Shown piece after piece: positions 6,112 to 23,518 of a DNA stretch of 64,000 nt (position 1 is its first letter; each line of letters begins with the position of its first letter). The notes below the pieces were generated by a model that worked only from the letters and a program-made list of their open reading frames with translations, did no database searches and had not been told where the DNA came from. Source of the stretch: Herbinix luporum (GTDB lineage Bacteria; Bacillota; Clostridia; Lachnospirales; Lachnospiraceae); assembly GCF_900070325.1 (NCBI RefSeq), contig NZ_LN879430.1, positions 2,163,379-2,227,378 on the forward strand. Direction: 5' to 3'. The position numbers and the translations under genes were made by a program.

Positions 6112-6324
6112 CTAAAGAATTCTATACGTAAAAATATTAACACTACGTAATTTCTTTAGGCAGCACTCCATCCATTCACATGATGACAGTCACATGGTTA
6201 TTCACCATATGCCCAGCGATAATAACTCAGGATTATTATCACTTCGGCAACATCCCCTTTCCACTGCCTCATCTATCCCTGAAATATCAAACAGTGTACT
6301 CTTGAATATTGCGCCTCTACCTCA
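6112..6324 (-). promoter_or_regulatory. Lysine riboswitch (L box) controlling dapA-dapB
   Basis: Read on the minus strand, the aptamer carries hallmark L-box segments: GAGGTAGAGGCGC at the 5' side, GTTGCCGAAG in the middle, CTGTCATCATGTGAATGG, and GGAGTGCTGCC at the 3' side. The closing helix P1 pairs AGGTAG (about 6317-6322) with CTGCCT (6158-6163). Next to the aptamer, CTAAAGAA and TTCTTTAG (6112-6159) form a second stem. This could compete with P1 and act as the anti-terminator before the 6085-6110 terminator. Lysine binding is known for this class. The exact switching structure is my inference. Confidence 0.95.
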
Positions 6325-6352
6325 AGCAATATTTCACATTATTTATAAAACT

Positions 6353-14464: not shown

Positions 14465-17011
14465 TTATTTTTTAGTGATGGTTAAACCAACTTTTACTTC
14501 GTGATTTATAAAAGCACCAGAAGCCTCATCAATAGTTTCTTTGATAGTTACAGTTCTTACGTTAAACTCATCAGCAGTACCTACTGCGACAACTTCGACA
14601 ATATTGTCAGTAACGTCTTTTCCATTTAATGTGAACTTGAAGCATTCCTTAACAGCTGCGATCAAATTCGTATCTTCTTTGTTACTTGGATTAACTCCGT
14701 TCTGTTCAAATAAACGATTCTTAACTTCAGCTAATACTGGAGCAACTTGAGTATCGTCTACACTAAACTGTACAATATCTAAAACAACTTCTTTATTATC
14801 AAAAGCAGTAACTTTATAGCTACCTTTAGGAGCCTTCTCTATAGCTCCTCCTTCTCCAACTTTTACTAAGGTAAATTTGTTTTCACTAGAATCAAAGTTG
14901 TTTTCATCCCATTTGTCTTCAGGTGAATCAATCTTAAGAATGTAATCAGAACCACTGTTCAATACCCCTCTTGATACTTTAACACCATTGCTGTTATAAC
15001 CGAATAATTCGATTCCAAGAGTTTTGTTGATTTCACCTTCTTTAACTTTAAGATCAACAAATGTATCTTCTAACTGAAGTTTGTAGTAAGCAACATTTGT
15101 ATCTGTTTTACCATCTAGAACTTTTACTGTAACAACAGCTGCCTTCTTACCAACAGTAACTTTGTAATAATAAGTTCCTACTGCCATGTCTTTAGCTGAA
15201 AATTCAATTGTGTCACCTGTAGCGTTAGATTTTTCATCTGTTAAATCATCAGCAGGACTTCCACTCATCTTTTCAACTGAATATGTAAAGTCGTCTTTTT
15301 CCATCTTAGTTCCTAGTTGATCTTTAACAGAAATTTTCACTTCTGCCTTGTCGTCAACGTCTGGATTGTTAGATAATACAACATTGGTATTGCTTAAAGA
15401 TAAAACACCTACAGTTCTCTCAGGATGTACAGTTATAGAAATTGCACCGATAGGAGTTTTTGAATCACCTTCACCATAGGATACAACTACTACAACATTA
15501 CCTTCCTTAACAGGGAATAAATTACCCTTATTATCAACAATTAAAATATTCTTATCAGAGGATGTGAAATCGAACATTCCTTCTTCAGCAAAGCTATTAA
15601 TAGTAGCTTCTTTTGAACCAGTCTTTGTATTAAACTGTACGAACAGTCTAACATTATTGTCATTAAGAGCAAGAACCTGATTTACATCCTTAAAAGTAGG
15701 TTCTGTTGTAGACTCATCAATGGTCTCAATGGTCCAAGCTTTTAATCCAGTAATATTTGTTGCATCTTTATCAACACCTATGATAATTGCTTCATCTTCT
15801 ACTACACCAACTTCATTACCTTCAGAGTCATACTTATAAGTATGATAAGTAGCAGTAATAGTTGTTGAAGCATTTTTGCCAAATATAGTTAACTCATTAG
15901 TATCAGTATTAAAGTAAGTACCAGCGCCTTCAGAAGACTTCATGGTTACTCTATTTGCTAATTTATCTGTTGTAATATCAACACCATTAGCGTTGTATAA
16001 CTTAAACTCTACCTTAGTAGCCTCGTTATATACAACTGTAGAAGTGGTAATATCTATCTTAGCTACATCTTCTTCATTTGTTGTAGCAGCAACGAAGCTT
16101 TCAGGCTCTAAATCAGTATACTTAACTACATAAGTAGCACCAGCTTTGAAAGGAACATATAATTGAACAGTAGCTGTCTTTTTATCATCACTCATGGTAA
16201 CCTTTTTAACAAGCTGTTTAACTTCTGCTTTACCAATTAACTCGTATACTGATATATTCTTGTCAGCATCTGCCATAGCAGAATCAAATACTACGTCAAC
16301 AGTTTCAAGATCTACCTGACTAACTTCTACAATAGAAGGAGCAACAGTGATCTTTACGGTATCTTCTGCTAATACATATTTAGCATATGTGTCAGCGTCT
16401 TTTTTCCAATCTTCATATTTAGCGTTGGACTGGAATGAACGAGCAGTGATTGTATACTCACCAGCTTCGTTAGCTACGAATACACCCTTTTCACTGATAT
16501 TAGCCTTATCAGAGTCTACTGTCCATCTTGTGATAGCGGATGTCTCCTTTGTGCTTCCAGATACAGTTACAAAGCTTCTGTTAAAGTCATTCTCTTGGCC
16601 AACTGCAAGTTTGTTGCCCTCAGGAATGTTTGTGATTTTAACAGTTTTGATGTTATCTCTTACTGTTACTTTTGCGTAAAGTTTAGTAACAACTTCCTTG
16701 TTCTTATCTGTGATTGTAACAGTTACTGTTGTTTTACCAACGCCAGTTGCTCTAGTAACACCGTTCTTGGAGTTAACTACTGCAATATCTTCGTCAGCAG
16801 ATTCCCAATAGTATTTCCAACCACTTTGTTTGTTGTTAATGTTGAAGTTGAACTTGTTTTTGCCTTCTACACCAAGATGTAAGTACTTGTTAGTAGAGTT
16901 AAGAGTAGGCTTCTTAGCAGCAGCGAATGCTCCTGCAGCAGGATAGAATACTGAAAGTACCATCGCTACTACAAGCACGAAAGACAACTTCTTGAAGAAT
17001 TTGGTCTTCAT
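14465..17011 (-). CDS. Large secreted S-layer-like protein with Ig-like repeats
   Basis: This is 848 residues. A signal peptide is obvious: basic MKTKFFKK, a hydrophobic core, and a likely cleavage after AGAFAAA. A bacterial Ig-like (BIG2-type) module follows at about residues 33-115 (YYWESADEDIAVVNSKNGVTRATGVGKTTVTVT in two parts), and a second candidate lies near 120-220. Further beta-rich segments fill the rest. I see no SLH repeats, LPXTG motif or catalytic motif. Codon choice is more uniform than in neighbours. The gene has AAGGAGG before its ATG, three tandem promoters and a strong terminator. This suggests very high expression, as for a surface-layer or matrix protein. The surface-layer role is inferred. 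Confidence 0.75.
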   Translation of the reverse strand: MKTKFFKKLSFVLVVAMVLSVFYPAAGAFAAAKKPTLNSTNKYLHLGVEGKNKFNFNINNKQSGWKYYWESADEDIAVVNSKNGVTRATGVGKTTVTVTITDKNKEVVTKLYAKVTVRDNIKTVKITNIPEGNKLAVGQENDFNRSFVTVSGSTKETSAITRWTVDSDKANISEKGVFVANEAGEYTITARSFQSNAKYEDWKKDADTYAKYVLAEDTVKITVAPSIVEVSQVDLETVDVVFDSAMADADKNISVYELIGKAEVKQLVKKVTMSDDKKTATVQLYVPFKAGATYVVKYTDLEPESFVAATTNEEDVAKIDITTSTVVYNEATKVEFKLYNANGVDITTDKLANRVTMKSSEGAGTYFNTDTNELTIFGKNASTTITATYHTYKYDSEGNEVGVVEDEAIIIGVDKDATNITGLKAWTIETIDESTTEPTFKDVNQVLALNDNNVRLFVQFNTKTGSKEATINSFAEEGMFDFTSSDKNILIVDNKGNLFPVKEGNVVVVVSYGEGDSKTPIGAISITVHPERTVGVLSLSNTNVVLSNNPDVDDKAEVKISVKDQLGTKMEKDDFTYSVEKMSGSPADDLTDEKSNATGDTIEFSAKDMAVGTYYYKVTVGKKAAVVTVKVLDGKTDTNVAYYKLQLEDTFVDLKVKEGEINKTLGIELFGYNSNGVKVSRGVLNSGSDYILKIDSPEDKWDENNFDSSENKFTLVKVGEGGAIEKAPKGSYKVTAFDNKEVVLDIVQFSVDDTQVAPVLAEVKNRLFEQNGVNPSNKEDTNLIAAVKECFKFTLNGKDVTDNIVEVVAVGTADEFNVRTVTIKETIDEASGAFINHEVKVGLTITKK

Positions 17012-17143
17012 ATTTTTACTTCCTCCTTAAATATTATGTTTTAGTATTATATTTTTGCGTATCCTTACCTGATCCAGAAGTTTTTTGCCCCCACTGTTTT
17101 CAGTTAAGAAACGCATTAATATAATCATTCAGACAACAAGATG

Positions 17144-17172
17144 ATTATAGCAATAAAGGAATTAAAGGTCAA
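17144..17172 (-). promoter_or_regulatory. Proximal promoter P1 of the S-layer-like gene
   Basis: TTGACC and TATAAT are 17 bases apart on the minus strand. The transcript would have a leader of about 125 bases. Confidence 0.85.
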
Positions 17173-17204
17173 GACTTTTTGTCTCTGTTTTTGGATAATT
17201 TACC

Positions 17205-17234
17205 AGTTTATGCCAATCTTCCTTTATTGTCAAA
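17205..17234 (-). promoter_or_regulatory. Middle promoter P2 of the S-layer-like gene
   Basis: TTGACA and TAAACT are 17 bases apart (-35 at 17229-17234, -10 at 17206-17211 within one base). It lies about 60 bases upstream of P1. Confidence 0.65.
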
Positions 17235-17307
17235 ATCACCTGAGCCAGACGATTATATCCTAGTCAAATCTGCTATAGGGATAACCCCTTTCTCCTTACA
17301 TCTCCCA

Positions 17308-17375
17308 TATAGCAAGCTCCTTGAAAGCAGTTAAATTAGGATGTGACTTACCTGCCGGCATGGAGTATTGCTATA
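17308..17375 (-). repeat. Stem-loop in the long leader of the S-layer-like gene
   Basis: TATAGCAA pairs with TTGCTATA, and inner CTCC pairs with GGAG, enclosing about 40 bases that include ATGCCGGCAGG. The element would be transcribed only from the distal promoter P3. I do not recognise it as a known riboswitch. It occupies most of the gap between thrC and P2. Confidence 0.55.
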
Positions 17376-17402
17376 GGTTAATGCCTCATTGCTTTGACTA
17401 TG

Positions 17403-17430
17403 GTTATATAATGCACTTTGTATGTGTCAA
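17403..17430 (-). promoter_or_regulatory. Distal promoter P3 of the S-layer-like gene
   Basis: TTGACA and TATAAC are 16 bases apart on the minus strand, just past the thrC stop codon. A transcript from here would carry a leader of nearly 390 bases. Confidence 0.65.
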
Positions 17431-17454: not shown

Positions 17455-18945
17455 TTAGTTTTTTTTCAATATTTCCTCAACTTCATTTTTCATCTCATCA
17501 ATTTCACATACATTTTTATGCCTAATCTCTGCAGAATATAATTCCTCAATTGCCTTTGGTATTGCCACACCGGATAATTCTTTAAGTACTTTAGCCTGTT
17601 CATAATCATTCTCAGGTATAGGATCTTTTCCTAAGGCACTTAGAACACTTTCTGCAAACTTATAAGGACTGGCAGTTGAGACTATAACTGTTTTTGTCTT
17701 ATCTCCTACTTCATCCTTGTACTTATTATAAACACTAGAAGCTACTGCTGTATGTGTATCTAAGACATATCCTGTTTCTTCATATATGTTAAGAATGGCG
17801 GACTTAGTTTCTTCTACTGTTGCATAGCCTCCGATAAAGTCTTCTAGATTCTTTTTCATATCTGATGTTATTTCATATCTTCCCTTACTGCTTAAGCTGT
17901 TCATTAAATCCTTGGTTTTATCCGTATCCTCTCCTGCAATATGATAAATCAGCCTCTCTAGATTACTGCTGATAAGTATGTCCATGGACGGAGATATGGT
18001 AAGGATAAATTCACGATTAGAATCGTATACACCTGTTTGAAAGAAATCAAACAGAACCTTATTGTCATTGGAAGCACAGATTAACTTTCCTATGGGAAGA
18101 CCCATCTGCTTTGCATAATAAGCTGCAAGGATATTTCCGAAATTACCTGTAGGAACTACAAAATTGATTTTTTCCCCTTCCGATACTTCATTCCTTCTAT
18201 ATAATTCTACATAGGAATAAACATAATAAACTATCTGAGGAAGCAGCCGTCCTATATTGATAGAGTTGGCTGAAGAGAATCGGTATCCCGCTTTTTTTAT
18301 TCTCTCTGCAAGTTCTTGGTCATTAAATATCTTCTTAACTCCGGTTTGAGCATCATCAAAGTTACCACGGATTCCAATTACATAGGTATTATCCCCTTTT
18401 TGGGTTACCATCTGCTTCTCCTGAACCTTGCTTACTCCATCTTTCGGATAAAAGACTATAATCTTAGTTCCCTCTACATCCGCAAATCCAGCCAGTGCTG
18501 CTTTTCCTGTATCCCCTGAAGTGGCCGTAAGAATTACAATCTCATCAGATATATTATTTTTTTTAGCCGCTTTAGTAAGAAGATGGGGCAGAATAGATAG
18601 AGCCATATCTTTAAATGCTATGGTAGCTCCATGGAATAATTCAAGATAATACATATTCCCAACTTTTTTTAGGGGAGCAATATCCGGTACGTCAAATTTT
18701 TCGTCATAAGCTTTGCTGATACAATCCTTTAATTCATCTTCCGTATAATCAGTCAAATATAGTCTTAGAACTTCATAAGCAATCTCAAGGTAATTCATCT
18801 TTGATAATTCATTCATGGATATGGTTAGCTTTGGAATAGCTTCCGGTACAAATAGTCCACCGTCCGGTGACAAGCCTTGAATAATTGCTTCAGATGCAGT
18901 TACTTTTATACTGCTATTTCTTGTACTATGATACATTAGATTCAT
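17455..18945 (-). CDS. thrC: Threonine synthase
   Basis: Threonine synthase converts O-phosphohomoserine to threonine with pyridoxal phosphate. The 496 residues match the longer bacterial form. The N-terminal YHSTRN...SPDGGLFVPE is diagnostic. The cofactor lysine lies in LFHGATIAFKDMALSILPHLL near residue 115, and the phosphate-binding region is TATSGDTGKAAL. AAAGGGG lies about 11 bases before the chosen ATG. A second ATG three codons in is also possible. It is a single gene with its own promoter-like sequence upstream and no visible T-box. Confidence 0.95.
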   Translation of the reverse strand: MNLMYHSTRNSSIKVTASEAIIQGLSPDGGLFVPEAIPKLTISMNELSKMNYLEIAYEVLRLYLTDYTEDELKDCISKAYDEKFDVPDIAPLKKVGNMYYLELFHGATIAFKDMALSILPHLLTKAAKKNNISDEIVILTATSGDTGKAALAGFADVEGTKIIVFYPKDGVSKVQEKQMVTQKGDNTYVIGIRGNFDDAQTGVKKIFNDQELAERIKKAGYRFSSANSINIGRLLPQIVYYVYSYVELYRRNEVSEGEKINFVVPTGNFGNILAAYYAKQMGLPIGKLICASNDNKVLFDFFQTGVYDSNREFILTISPSMDILISSNLERLIYHIAGEDTDKTKDLMNSLSSKGRYEITSDMKKNLEDFIGGYATVEETKSAILNIYEETGYVLDTHTAVASSVYNKYKDEVGDKTKTVIVSTASPYKFAESVLSALGKDPIPENDYEQAKVLKELSGVAIPKAIEELYSAEIRHKNVCEIDEMKNEVEEILKKN

Positions 18946-19074: not shown

Positions 19075-20007
19075 TTATTTGTAAAATTCATGAACCCCAT
19101 GCTTAAATAACCACTTTAGATTGTTATCAAACCACTTCACATTACTTTTCTTAGCAAGCTTTCTTGCCATAAAGTATAAGGCCCCTTGAGAATAATCTTC
19201 ACCCTCTAAAGCTCTTTCTACTGCTTCTTTAGTTTCCTTTGTCACCTTAACCTTCCAAAATCTCTTATCGGCTATGGGAGAAAACTGATAGTCATCTCCA
19301 ACCTTTTGGAATATAACATCCTTGATATTATCGGGAAACTTTTTGCTACACACTCTGTTAATTACAACATTGGCAACTAATATTTTTCCGATTATATCTT
19401 CTCCTGTTGCTTCTGCCTCAACAATCTGCTCCAACATCTCTATATCTTCTTCTGTAATCTTAATTTTAGTGACCTTGTTATTCTTCTTAAGAACCAGTTC
19501 ACTAACTACTTCTTTCTCAGTTTTTTTCTCAGTCTTTTTTTCAGTCTTTTTCTCAGTATTTTTCTCAGTATCTTTCTCAGTATCTTTTTCAGTATCTTTT
19601 TCAACCTCTTCTACAATCGGTTCAGCTTCAGCTACTGAAAAACTTGAAATAGCCTTAGTTTCTTCCTTAAGAACTTTATTATCTTTCATCTGTTCAAACA
19701 TAAGACTATACTCATTACTGCTCATGGCAAATCCTAAAAGCCAGTTGGTATCTTTAGAGCCCACAGCAGTTTGGGACCTTATGGGCAGATATTTCTGCAG
19801 ATAGTCCATCCTATACTCTACTTTTAGGGTGTTTGCTTCATCAGTTTGTGCCTGTACTGCGTCTGCCTTGGATTTGATATCATAAAGAGCATCAGATCCA
19901 ATGATCAACAGAAATACTGACAATACATAAGCTGCAAATACCATGCATATGCCATGATTATTTTCTCGCAGGCTTAACTTTTGAAGAAACTTATTTATGA
20001 TTGTCAT
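19075..20007 (-). CDS. Membrane-anchored cell wall hydrolase, SleB/CwlJ family
   Basis: This is 310 residues from MTIINKFLQK, with AAAGGA seven bases before the ATG. One membrane segment lies near residues 18-40 (ICMVFAAYVLSVFLLIIGSDA), so the rest is outside. A central run of about eight K-x-T-E repeats (residues near 145-175) forms a charged stalk. The C-terminal 120 residues are a SleB-type hydrolase: IVEAEATGEDIIGKILVANVV with the catalytic glutamate, VINRVCSKKFP, YQFSPIADKRFW and ALYFMARK. These enzymes cut peptidoglycan and include spore cortex lytic enzymes. This anchored form may act on the vegetative wall or on spores. Confidence 0.9.
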   Translation of the reverse strand: MTIINKFLQKLSLRENNHGICMVFAAYVLSVFLLIIGSDALYDIKSKADAVQAQTDEANTLKVEYRMDYLQKYLPIRSQTAVGSKDTNWLLGFAMSSNEYSLMFEQMKDNKVLKEETKAISSFSVAEAEPIVEEVEKDTEKDTEKDTEKNTEKKTEKKTEKKTEKEVVSELVLKKNNKVTKIKITEEDIEMLEQIVEAEATGEDIIGKILVANVVINRVCSKKFPDNIKDVIFQKVGDDYQFSPIADKRFWKVKVTKETKEAVERALEGEDYSQGALYFMARKLAKKSNVKWFDNNLKWLFKHGVHEFYK

Positions 20008-20040
20008 AATAATATCCTTTCTTCTTAAACCGAATTTTGT

Positions 20041-20070
20041 CATTACCAATATTTGTAAATATTGGTAATG
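20041..20070. repeat. Perfect palindrome in the SleB leader
   Basis: Arms of 13-14 bases (CATTACCAATATTT and AAATATTGGTAATG) flank a two-base centre. It lies between the -10 of the SleB promoter and its ribosome binding site. It could be a repressor operator or an RNA hairpin over the leader. No T-run follows, so it is not a terminator. Confidence 0.8.
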
Positions 20071-20410: not shown

Positions 20411-20450
20411 AATTATATTACAAATATATTATAAGAAAGTGGAGGCTATT

Positions 20451-21245
20451 ATGTTACCAGGTGTTTATTACGCTAAGAAAAAAAGTGGAGAGCCATATTA
20501 TAGGGCTTCAATTACCTTTAAGGGTAATCATATCAGCCTTGGCAGCTATGATACAGAAACAAAGGCTTCTAGTGCCTATAAACTTGCAGGGGAAGTACTT
20601 TATAGCACCCCTGATATATGGAATATAGATAATTACCCAAGCTCATGCCTGTTATCCTTTGATAAATGGGTCGTCTTAATTAACCTAAGAGATAATGGGA
20701 TTTATTTTAAAAATCCTATCTATTTAAAAAAGAGTTACTTCTTATATTATCTAGACAAAGATCTAATTCTCAAATTCGATGTAGATGATTTATTTTACTA
20801 TGCAAGACATAAGATATCCATGCGGGGCCAGCATCTATACACCTCTGAATATGGTATGCAAATAAATTTAAGATCCCGATATGGTATAAAAAATTATGCT
20901 GTAGAGGGAAGGGATTATCGCTTTATTAATGGTGATAATACGGACTTTCGTTATTCCAATATCGAGATTATTAATCCCTACCATGGTGTAAGCAAGTATA
21001 TAAAAAATAATAAAACCATATATGAAGCTAAGATACATCTTAATGGAGACTATATAATAGGTAGATATGACACAGAGGAAGAGGCAGCTATAGCCTATAA
21101 TAAGGCTGCTCAGATATTAAAAAATAAAGGTGTTTCTAAAAATTTTCCCGAGAATTATGTAGAAGGAATAGATGAGATAACCTATGCCGCCCTATATCAA
21201 CGGATTAGAATATCAAAAAAGATTTTAAATTATATGTCCTCTTAG
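20451..21245 (+). CDS. Two AP2 domains around a degenerate HNH core
   Basis: This is 264 residues from an ATG with GTGGAGG five bases upstream. An AP2-like three-strand DNA-binding domain is at the N-terminus (GVYYAKKKSGEPYYRASIT, ISLGSYDTETKASSAYK). A second is near residues 183-230 (HGVSKYIKNNKTIYEAKIHL, YDTEEEAAIAYNKAA). The middle resembles an HNH endonuclease module (YYARHKISMRG, then YRFINGDNTDFRYSNIEII). The usual VDHINGD is YRFINGD, so the catalytic histidine is lost. I infer a DNA-binding protein derived from an AP2-HNH homing endonuclease, now perhaps a regulator. It stands alone between the SleB gene and rnpB. Confidence 0.72.
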   Translation: MLPGVYYAKKKSGEPYYRASITFKGNHISLGSYDTETKASSAYKLAGEVLYSTPDIWNIDNYPSSCLLSFDKWVVLINLRDNGIYFKNPIYLKKSYFLYYLDKDLILKFDVDDLFYYARHKISMRGQHLYTSEYGMQINLRSRYGIKNYAVEGRDYRFINGDNTDFRYSNIEIINPYHGVSKYIKNNKTIYEAKIHLNGDYIIGRYDTEEEAAIAYNKAAQILKNKGVSKNFPENYVEGIDEITYAALYQRIRISKKILNYMSS

Positions 21246-21360
21246 TTACCAATATGTTAATAATATTATATTTTCTTTAAATCTTCCAAATTCACTTTAA
21301 AAAAGTCTAGTTTCATGATATATTAATGCTATATTTTTCTTCTTCCGTTTTCATAATTTC

Positions 21361-21446
21361 ACAAATTGAGCCGCAGGTACAAAATTCAGAAGTTTCTTTT
21401 AAAGAAACGCCCCCCTGTAAATGTACTTGCGGCTCAATTTGTTTTT
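21361..21446 (+). terminator. Long hairpin with a second hairpin in its loop
   Basis: Arms of 20 bases (ACAAATTGAGCCGCAGGTAC, and its complement with one G-U pair at 21423-21442) are followed by TTTTT. The loop contains its own perfect stem, GTTTCTTT-AAAGAAAC. It sits 115 bases after the double-AP2 gene and 50 bases before rnpB. It could be a terminator, a small RNA, or the relic of a small palindromic mobile element. Confidence 0.65.
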
Positions 21447-21496
21447 CCTTTGATTTTACATTTACTTTTATCATCTTACATGTTAGAATACCTTTT

Positions 21497-21863
21497 GTGA
21501 GTAGCACAGATGGTCGCGCTTTTTTAAGTGAGGAAAGTCCGGGCTTCATAGGGCAGGGTGCCGGATAACGTCCGGTGGAGGCGACTCCAAGGCTAGTGCA
21601 ACAGAAATAAACCGCCATGGCAAAGTTTCTTTGCTATGGTAAGGATGGAAAGGTGGTTTAAGAGACCACCGCCCTTCTGGTAACAGAAGGGGCAGATGTA
21701 AACCCCACCCGAAGTAAGGCCGAACAGAAAGCGATACGGTTGCCCGCCGTGCTTTCGGGTTGGCCGCGTAGTATCTGTGAAAGCGGATACTGGAGCCGTA
21801 TGGTAACATACGGTCAAGATAGATGACCATCCGAGACAGAACCCGGCTTATAGTGCTGCTCAT
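21497..21863 (+). ncRNA. rnpB: RNase P RNA, type A
   Basis: This is the catalytic RNA that trims the 5' leader of tRNA precursors. The conserved elements are visible: GAGGAAAGTCCGGGC near 21531, CAGGGTGCCGG, a segment reading GGTAAGGATGGAAAGGTGG, then GAGACCACCGCCC, and GACAGAACCCGGCTTAT near the 3' end. The outer helix P1 pairs GTGAGTAGCAC with GTGCTGCTCAT and sets both ends. A TAGAAT -10 element at 21484-21489 would start transcription at about 21496. The 3' end overlaps the last codon of the convergent kinase-like gene. I see no T-rich terminator directly after it. Several antisense reading frames here are not genes. Confidence 0.97.
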
Positions 21864-23518
21864 ACTTTAAAGCAACTTCCACCTATAAATTCTTTTAATA
21901 TAGAGTTTTTCGGTACAGCATCACTTGGTGCTCCTATAAAATAGTCTAAAAACTTCAGCAATCTTTTTGCTTCTAAATATTCTACACTATCCCTATCTAC
22001 CCCAAATAAAATAGGTTCAGCATACTGCTTTAAGACAGCCAGCTCATAGATTAGAGCGGAATTGAACATTATATCTGCCTCCTCTTGGAATGGGAAGATA
22101 TTCTCTTCTTCGCCCCTTCTTACAGATGGCCACATAGATATAGTTGTCTGGGCTGATGCCCCTCTAGTTCTTGCATCCCTAACCATTCTTCTAATCAGCC
22201 TGCCGTCGGTAGTGGGAATTCTGTTATGTTCATCAATATTTAACTGAGTTAGAGCACTGATATAAATTTTATACTTGCTTTCCCTAGGAAGGCAGTAGGA
22301 TAGTTCATCATTAAGGCCATGTATACCCTCTATAACCAAAATTCCGTCTTTGCCTATATTCAGATAATTACCCTTATATTCTCTCTTGCCGGTTATAAAA
22401 TTATATACAGGCAAATCCACTGATTTACCATTCATTAAGTCAGTCATATCCTTATTAAACTGTTCCAAATCAATAGCATGTAGGCTTTCAAAGTTTAAAT
22501 TCCCATATTCATCTTTTGGGGTTTTATCTCTATTTACAAAATAGTTATCCACTGCAATGGGATAAGGCTTTAAGCCATGGGCTTTCAGTTGAATACTAAG
22601 CCTATGGGAAAATGTAGTCTTACCGGAAGAAGAAGGACCCGCTATCATAATAAATTTCTTATCTTTTGCCTTTTTAATAGCTTCAGCTATTTCACTGATT
22701 TTCTTTTCCTGTAGAGCCTCCTGTACTAAAACCAAATCATTAAACTTTCCTTGGGATATAAGGTCATTAAGAGCCCCTACATTATCAACTTCCATCATTT
22801 TAGCCCATTGATTAGATTCCTTTAAAGTAAGATAGAGTTTTTTCTTGGGTATAAAGGGTTCTACCGTTGTAGGATTTTTCATTCTTGGTAGTACTAAAAC
22901 AAAACCATCCTCATAAAGCATCAAATCAAAATATTTAAGCATACCGGTACTTGGGGGCATATATCCATAATAATAATCTTCAAACCCATCTAGGTTATAT
23001 ATATTTGCCTTAGATACTCGGCGGTACTTAAATAACTTTTCCTTATCATACATCTTATAAAAAGCAAATAGGGATACGGCATCATCTGTACCTATGCTTC
23101 TTTTAAGAAAAGGTATGTCTTTATTAACCAGTTGCTTCATTCTGTCTTTTACCGCTTCGATTCGTTCTATGGTTAAGGGTAGACTACCTTCATAATCAAA
23201 ATATAAGCTGTTTCCTAAAGAGTATTCTACAGAAACTTTCTTTACATTATCTTTACCAAACTCAGCATAAAAAGCCTTAAGTAAGACTAAAATCATACCT
23301 CTGGTATATGTCTTATGGCCGGCATCTTCATTGGTGGTAACAAAACTTACGGTACAATCCTTATCTACGGTCTTAAACAGTTCCCTAAGCTTTCCGTTAA
23401 CAAAGGCAAGGATTATATCATAACTATATTCCTTCTGATATTCAGCCGCAATTTCTGATAATTTAGTGTTAATGGGGTATTCTTTAACTTCTTCACCAAT
23501 CTTTACTTTAACTTTCAT
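21860..23518 (-). CDS. Uridine kinase-like nucleoside kinase with N-terminal TGS region
   Basis: This is 552 residues. The N-terminus (MKVKVKIGEEVKEYPINTKLSEIA) is like the TGS and editing-domain region of threonyl-tRNA synthetase and extends to about residue 230. The C-terminal half is a uridine kinase/phosphoribulokinase-type P-loop domain: IMIAGPSSSGKTTFSHRL near residue 285, then VDNYFVNRDKTP, and IEGIHGLN. Such fusions are common in Clostridia and Thermotoga and are annotated as nucleoside kinases, but the true substrate is not established. The start overlaps the trmK stop by 11 bases. Longer upstream starts only read through trmK. Confidence 0.85.
   Translation of the reverse strand: MKVKVKIGEEVKEYPINTKLSEIAAEYQKEYSYDIILAFVNGKLRELFKTVDKDCTVSFVTTNEDAGHKTYTRGMILVLLKAFYAEFGKDNVKKVSVEYSLGNSLYFDYEGSLPLTIERIEAVKDRMKQLVNKDIPFLKRSIGTDDAVSLFAFYKMYDKEKLFKYRRVSKANIYNLDGFEDYYYGYMPPSTGMLKYFDLMLYEDGFVLVLPRMKNPTTVEPFIPKKKLYLTLKESNQWAKMMEVDNVGALNDLISQGKFNDLVLVQEALQEKKISEIAEAIKKAKDKKFIMIAGPSSSGKTTFSHRLSIQLKAHGLKPYPIAVDNYFVNRDKTPKDEYGNLNFESLHAIDLEQFNKDMTDLMNGKSVDLPVYNFITGKREYKGNYLNIGKDGILVIEGIHGLNDELSYCLPRESKYKIYISALTQLNIDEHNRIPTTDGRLIRRMVRDARTRGASAQTTISMWPSVRRGEEENIFPFQEEADIMFNSALIYELAVLKQYAEPILFGVDRDSVEYLEAKRLLKFLDYFIGAPSDAVPKNSILKEFIGGSCFKV

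Follow-up and report, generated by a model that had tools for sequence, protein, structure and literature searches.

The S-layer gene of Herbinix luporum is preceded by a structured leader RNA, probably cis-regulatory, that was identified by covariation beyond that expected from phylogeny and column make-up. The leader is conserved among relatives, its first domain (Domain I) covaries, its other helices retain their complementarity, and two promoters are conserved ahead of a gene whose product is related to known S-layer proteins. The reading toward which we lean is that promoter-dependent 5′ folds stabilize and tune an abundant S-layer mRNA.

Genomic context and conservation of the leader

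The window, i.e., the whole stretch of DNA analyzed, comprises 64,000 nucleotides of the H. luporum genome (2.61 Mb, single contig), and the features discussed lie on its minus strand unless a plus is given. The leader region (17454-17012) consists of the 443 bases between thrC, encoding threonine synthase (17455-18945; Pfam PF14821 and PF00291), and a gene for a Sap-like protein of 848 amino acids (14465-17011). The product matches Bacillus anthracis Sap chains in phmmer with E-values of 1e-6 to 2e-6, the best stretches falling within residues 210-754. Its AlphaFold2 model (mean pLDDT 83, pTM 0.40; alignment of 14 sequences) has among its ten best Foldseek matches Sap (the best, E 1.2e-27), EA1, SbsC, and SbsB, together with two nuclear-pore chains. 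The first four matches, all of them Sap, reach global TM-scores of only 0.22-0.31; therefore, the likeness to Sap is one of domains in order, not of one rigid shape. By this predicted assembly-domain homology to Sap, the gene is an S-layer gene. Its product is like Bacillus Sap and EA1 in the sequence and modeled fold of the assembly domains, and unlike them in that no SLH anchor domain is found among its Pfam matches; the N-terminus appears signal-peptide-like by eye. Judging from its identity as an S-layer protein, the surface protein would be highly abundant.

The gene thrC lies upstream of the leader in all 27 extracted genomes and in 36 of the 38 loci of the named genome collection, the remaining two having only 372 and 736 bases of upstream sequence. 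Leaders were extracted from 26 members of the genus (H. luporum included), which denotes here the group classed as the same genus in the genome search, and from one member of another genus; the named relatives at this locus are Herbinix, Mobilitalea, Anaerocolumna, Lachnoclostridium, and other Lachnospiraceae. Within the genus, copies of the adjoining protein share 32-76% identity with that of H. luporum, some of them being cut by contig ends, and the protein alignment (A2) omits L099, in whose protein there are unknown residues. One record appears under two handles, G057 and L098: G057 was excluded from the 26-row set, the own-partner tests and the partition functions on 40 leaders used L098, and the counts of TGACA repeats and of the loop over 40 leaders used G057.

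For 17 other members of the genus, the alignment covers the whole 443-base stretch to within one base, with an identity of 67-79%; the rest match only piecewise. Over 26 genomes, the identity per block is 0.85-0.89 for the distal promoter P3, 0.95-0.97 for the proximal promoter P1, 0.91-1.0 for the ribosome-binding site, and 0.81 for the block containing GUCACAUCC. The same alignment delineates a conserved A/U-rich stretch with the Shine–Dalgarno sequence AAGGAGG (17028-17022) at 17012-17045, in which mean column identity reaches 0.97-1.0 across 17034-17012. A mobile or repeated element was considered and rejected, the leader being single-copy in the genome and its other matches spanning just 17-29 bases.

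Domain I: architecture, covariation, and distribution

The initial annotation had described an 8+4 bp stem in a P3 leader of almost 390 bases, and its letters are confirmed on the minus strand, where UAUAGCAA (17375-17368) and CUCC (17365-17362) pair with GGAG (17320-17317) and UUGCUAUA (17315-17308). None of 100 shuffles of the 394-nt leader folds as well as the leader itself (z -5.19), and for 186 nt of the leader alone 8 of 200 shuffles fold as well (z -2.18). Domain I is the RNA element at 17402-17251, the last eight bases of which are element (1), and this interval was used for alignment A1, the covariation analysis, and the covariance model R1. It contains a closing helix (17400-17393/17268-17261), CA/UG pairs (17383-17382/17300-17299) beside a purine-rich internal loop, a covarying arm (17377-17368/17315-17305), an apical hairpin (about 17357-17325), and a small GGG/CCC hairpin (17289-17286/17280-17277). 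The apical loop GUCACAUCCUA (17337-17347) is identical in all 24 rows of A1, and GTCACATCC is present in 26 of 40 leaders, including two of Lachnoclostridium phytofermentans. The architecture was obtained with RNAalifold on a separate MAFFT alignment, and 32 pairs were counted in a hand-written structure; A1 aligns 24 leaders over 17402-17251, 23 of the genus and L102, with G011, G021, and G023 excluded as leaders without the inner domain.

Pairing is retained in 84.8% of 748 cells, compared with 35.8-41.5% when partners are slid by 1-3 columns, an excess that is to be expected since the structure was drawn from the same sequences. The double changes are the stronger part of the evidence: 25 of the 32 pairs show changes on both sides, and the covariation score of 0.331 compares with 0.078-0.130 for slides of 1-3 columns and is reached by none of 500 shuffles. 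Because the kinship of sequences can mislead, a null was constructed on the thrC tree with column changes re-placed at random; 31 compensatory branches were observed, whereas 5.8 ± 2.2 were expected, with a maximum of 13 in 300. Exchange of partners between leaders leads in the same direction. In the basal arm, the own partner gives -14.5 kcal/mol vs -8.5 for swapped partners (single best in 9 of 24; 0 of 20000 permutations), and in the apical arm -11.1 vs -7.6 kcal/mol (5 of 24; 0 of 20000), while the closing helix, which is nearly invariant, gives -8.9 vs -8.0 kcal/mol (3 of 20000 permutations). Cells with GU or UG (69) outnumber those with AC or CA (25), which favors the sense-strand RNA as the selected molecule.

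These results bear directly on a reading confined to DNA, in which the conserved blocks would be promoters and operators and the inverted repeats sites for proteins. As such a reading would have it, conservation is strongest at P3 with its TGACA repeats, at P1, and at the ribosome-binding site; nested multi-helix covariation with GU in excess of AC, and own-partner pairing across variable spacers, are unexpected for DNA sites, and we regard this explanation as very unlikely. A coding leader was also rejected: the lengths of Domain I range from 138 to 159, and 0, 3, and 0 of the 24 rows are open in the three sense frames. A covariation search had been suggested earlier for 17240-17400, and over 17402-17251 both conservation and covariation were found in relatives. 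As a leader RNA the proposed segment is real, but its extent was drawn too small, given that the helix 17258-17251/17126-17119 and a third helix, located ahead of the ribosome-binding site, belong to the structure as well.

No match at the gathering score was obtained in Rfam 15 for this leader or for the loci of four relatives. The best match below threshold, a plant-type microRNA model (28 bits, E 0.0015, gathering score 135), traces the long-range hairpin 17262-17115; all matches fall far below the Rfam gathering scores, and a known RNA family was rejected. The impression that no known riboswitch is recognizable in the leader thus agrees with Rfam. Elsewhere in the window, Rfam finds a lysine riboswitch aptamer (6153-6327, minus; RF00168, 123.5 bits) and a class A RNase P RNA (21498-21866, plus; RF00010, 287.8 bits), and the ORFs 21313-21618 and 21546-21863 that overlap the latter are probably mechanical only. 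No description of the leader was found in the open-licence literature, and the terms S-layer, surface layer, phytofermentans, Lachno, and thrC are absent from the main texts of three RNA-motif papers. The leader sequence suggests a previously undescribed RNA, without an Rfam entry, that would serve in control or protection. The earlier idea of a new leader RNA controlling a very abundant surface protein accordingly holds for the undescribed RNA, through covariation, synteny, and the lack of an Rfam match, and for the S-layer gene; the control and the abundance we infer.

Of 34 genus genomes, 23 contain a match to the model R1, a single one per genome and invariably within this leader. Domain I always lies ahead of the same class of gene, and on its strand. 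The inner part of Domain I is missing in 3 of 26 genus leaders. These account for three of the 11 misses, and the other eight genomes allow no judgment: five contigs end inside thrC, two genomes are without a thrC match, and in the eighth the contig stops 24 bases past the last aligned thrC codon, inside the upstream block of P3. In 397 family and 392 order genomes, which are overlapping samples scanned with stricter filters, so that weak members may be missed, R1 finds only the genus genomes G000 and G005 and one further match (G331, E 0.052), which falls within the 207-aa ORF of a gene unrelated to this one and was dropped as due to chance. Two leaders of L. phytofermentans match at E 1.4e-4 and 7.9e-4, and G011 (L082; E 0.009) and G023 (L101; E 0.021) retain the closing helix, which in them encloses a short loop. 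The Anaerocolumna leaders, on which R1 scores no better than chance, display a closing helix with other letters and an unrelated inner hairpin (by eye only). Since the inner part is absent from three of the 26 genus leaders and from the Anaerocolumna leaders seen, it is dispensable.

The question of what reads the invariant loop leads to two further explanations. Domain I may be a protein-binding autoregulatory leader, in which the S-layer protein, an assembly factor, a ribosomal protein, or an RNA-binding protein binds the loop and represses or stabilizes the P3 message, thereby matching synthesis to surface demand. Among the 34 genus genomes, Domain I stands before one gene only, the loop is invariant in 24 of 24 rows within stems that covary, and the leader has no terminator-like site, all of which are consistent with such a role; Domain I is nonetheless lost in some species that retain the gene, and we consider this explanation unlikely. 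Alternatively, the multi-helix architecture, the conserved loop, and the purine-rich internal loop would be suited to a riboswitch sensing a metabolite or ion. That explanation is less likely still, in view of the absence of a gathering-score match in Rfam here and at four relatives' loci and of a terminator-like site in the leader, and of the fact that R1 never lies before a metabolic gene in the genomes searched, the large samples having been scanned with stricter filters. A possible pseudoknot between the loop and GAAUGU, paired in 82.1% of cells, shows no covariation because the loop is invariant, and this too counts against a riboswitch.

Promoters and predicted alternative pairing in the leader

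Three tandem promoters had been proposed for the gene; the letters of all three are present on the minus strand, and P1 and P3 are conserved, but P2 is not. The proximal promoter P1 (TTGACC, 17172-17167; TATAAT, 17149-17144) has a spacer of 17 and an extended -10, TGCTATAAT, and its predicted start at ~17137 would give a leader of ~126 nt. Both its -35 TTGACC and its -10 TATAAT occur in 26 of 26 genus genomes. A 36-nt pattern of the P1 block is found at 38 loci of the named genome collection, each 104-177 nt before a gene with a similar product start (by eye), so P1 looks gene-specific instead of being a general consensus match. The distal promoter P3 (TTGACA, 17430-17425; TATAAC, 17408-17403) has a spacer of 16, with a predicted start at ~17399-17396 and a leader of ~388 nt. 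Its -35 reads TTGACA in all 26 genomes, and its -10 agrees at no fewer than four of six positions in 23 and at five or more in 14. The initial promoter scan did not list P3 because it requires T at position 6, and in a strict scan of the region for promoter-like pairs (at least 8/12) P1 passes in 26 genomes, P3 in 8 owing to its loose -10, and the P2 region in 3. A 12/12 consensus promoter is located elsewhere in the window (20108-20080, minus), ~30 bases before a cell-wall hydrolase ORF (19075-20049). Between that hydrolase and the RNase P gene lies a 268-aa ORF (20439-21245, plus) with no Pfam match at E 0.001, the repeats of which may be AP2-like.

The proposed P2 (TTGACA, 17233-17228; TAAACT, 17210-17205) was rejected as a conserved promoter. 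A reading with P1, P2, and P3 all active can point to the P2 letters, which are present and score 10/12 in H. luporum. In the 26 genomes, its -35 matches at four or more of six positions in 4 and at five or more in 2, and its -10 at four or more in 3 and at five or more in 0; this makes the three-promoter reading very unlikely. With P2 lacking conservation and P1 and P3 kept, two promoters are supported. The letters would also allow further -10 boxes at elements (1) and (4), for which no fixed -35 is seen.

Upstream of P3 are three TGACA repeats with an exact 11-bp spacing (17451-17447, 17440-17436, and 17429-17425), the last of which is within the P3 -35 box. The triplet is exact in 36 of 40 leaders, and in 39 if TGCCA is allowed, and is nearly invariant across genera; the exact triplet has one copy in the whole genome. 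Operators of the PhoB/OmpR type consist of direct repeats at 11-bp spacing that overlap the -35 box. The TGACA repeats share the direct repetition, spacing, and overlap, a likeness of arrangement only, and may resemble Pho boxes. The triplet is possibly a direct-repeat operator or activator site. In L099 (C. polysaccharolyticum) and L100 (Anaeromicropila populeti), the P3 -35 reads TTGCCA, and L096 (Lachnoclostridium sp. UBA5725) is without the triplet; these three retain the P1 block and an S-layer-type gene, and their P3 leaders have different hairpins (by eye).

Downstream of Domain I, the leader contains elements that can exchange partners. Element (1), AUAUAAUC (17251-17258), directly follows the closing helix and forms, with a 3′ extension, the left arm of the long-range helix of Domain II. 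The core of element (3), GAUUAUAU (17126-17119), lies close to where the P1 transcript is predicted to begin; that predicted 5′ end is formed by (3) together with its extension, GUUGUCUGAAUGAUUAUAU (17119-17137). Element (4), AAUAUAAU (17046-17053), precedes the ribosome-binding site and is the alternative partner of (3). With their extensions, (1) and (3) are predicted to form a duplex in every one of 39 leaders (-9.1 to -18.6 kcal/mol); L096, without a recognized element (1), is outside these 39 rows and has no partition value for this pairing. The own-partner mean is reached by 0 of 20000 permutations over all genera and by 522 of 20000 within the genus (61 of 20000 for the extension alone), and, with a core that shows almost no variation, only 1 of 39 leaders has its own partner as the single best. 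An inner helix of the P1 leader (17056-17115), pairing UGCGU (17115-17111) with ACGCA (17060-17056), continues the (3)-(4) pairing. Over 27 leaders, its own partner gives -14.5 kcal/mol vs -12.4 for swapped partners, a value reached by 2 of 20000 permutations, and is the single best in 3 of the 27.

Partition functions were computed on 40 leaders with starts set at a fixed distance from the -35 box, a rule that visibly misplaces the start in at least L067. In the P3 RNA, the probability of (1)-(3) exceeds 0.5 in 32 leaders and that of (3)-(4) in 7, whereas in the P1 RNA (3)-(4) exceeds 0.5 in all 40; hence, the partner of (3) is predicted to depend on the promoter used. Element (2), the P1 -10, was discarded as a partner of (3), reaching at most 0.01 in the 40 P3 RNAs. 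The Shine–Dalgarno sequence has a mean unpaired probability of 0.57 in the P3 RNA and 0.76 in the P1 RNA over 40 leaders, the opposite of H. luporum (0.96 and 0.68, respectively), so no simple on/off rule emerges; it is largely paired in a few P3 RNAs (G011, 0.14; G016, 0.21). No site resembling an intrinsic terminator was detected in the leader on the strand of the gene, which makes switching by termination unlikely. The lack of a terminator and a Shine–Dalgarno sequence that is not consistently hidden speak against a classical riboswitch, though not decisively.

A tentative possibility, built on these predicted folds, is a new class of gene-specific leader whose fold is set by the promoter, in which the distal RNA would carry a sensor domain with an invariant loop and lock (3) with (1), and the proximal RNA, starting inside (3), would lock (3) with (4). 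If so, the cell would pick either an S-layer message under regulation or one free of it, and the sensor would be read by a protein or by the ribosome, the loop perhaps resembling the 3′ end of 16S rRNA.

Proposed function and comparison with known systems

In the stabilizing reading that we favor, the S-layer gene would have two start points, each giving a transcript with its own folded 5′ end. The P3 transcript (~388 nt leader) would start at the foot of Domain I, a multi-helix element of ~140 nt with an invariant loop, and continue into the long-range helix (1)-(3), its 5′ end falling within ~4 nt of a helix, an arrangement that would hinder 5′-end-dependent decay. The P1 transcript (~126 nt) would start inside the extension of (3), and with (1) lost, (3) would pair with (4). 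Both folds may act mainly to stabilize the 5′ end of an abundant mRNA and to serve as its leaders in translation; the fold around (4) may be altered by promoter choice, and the invariant loop may be bound by a protein or other partner that adjusts the P3 form. The lack of a terminator-like site, a Shine–Dalgarno sequence that is not consistently hidden, a single and usually abundant protein, a P3 start at a helix foot, and the slpA precedent together favor a stabilizing, tunable leader. Several observations weigh against it: the P1 transcript is predicted to begin with ~11 unpaired nucleotides and would be a weaker stabilizer; a plain stabilizer would not need the invariant loop and leaves it unexplained; some species do without the inner part of Domain I; and the core of (1)-(3) varies very little, with (3)-(4) winning in 7 of 40 P3 RNAs.

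The precedent comes from Lactobacillus acidophilus slpA (Boot et al. 1996), before which two consensus promoters are described (PMC6482533; reference entry in PMC6176008), with only one sub-promoter reported there to drive mRNA synthesis and a leader for which a protective effect on the mRNA is proposed (PMC6482533). The Herbinix locus likewise has two conserved promoters before an S-layer gene; unlike slpA, for which one active sub-promoter is reported, both are conserved across species. Compared by description only, the Herbinix leader differs in its covariation-based structure, its several domains, its invariant loop, and the refolding predicted to accompany promoter choice. RppH and RNase E, according to PMC3997798, need single-stranded 5′ ends, which explains stabilizing 5′ structures, and a 5′ stabilizer lengthens the life of some B. 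subtilis mRNAs. As with the ermC stall sequence and a 5′ hairpin on bla, both described in that source, structure is located at or near the 5′ end; unlike those stabilizers, the Herbinix leader is much larger, gene-specific, and endowed with an invariant loop, and its stabilizing role is one we infer. The riboswitch and leader families of Rfam 15 share with it the leader position and the multi-helix fold, whereas the Herbinix leader has no gathering-score match, is tied to one structural-protein gene, and lacks a terminator-like site.

To our knowledge, the tuning of S-layer protein synthesis is little known outside a few groups. S-layer proteins are produced in very large quantities; in lactobacilli, a rate of up to 500 subunits per second is cited (PMC6176008). 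A leader RNA backed by covariation and carrying an invariant loop offers a concrete target for such work, and the relatives that share the locus include cultured isolates and L. phytofermentans, for which a genome-wide start-site map has been published (PMC5171806); the main text of that C. phytofermentans paper does not contain the word 'surface'. The P1 block, furthermore, is a candidate for use as a strong promoter with its leader when genes are to be expressed in these anaerobes.
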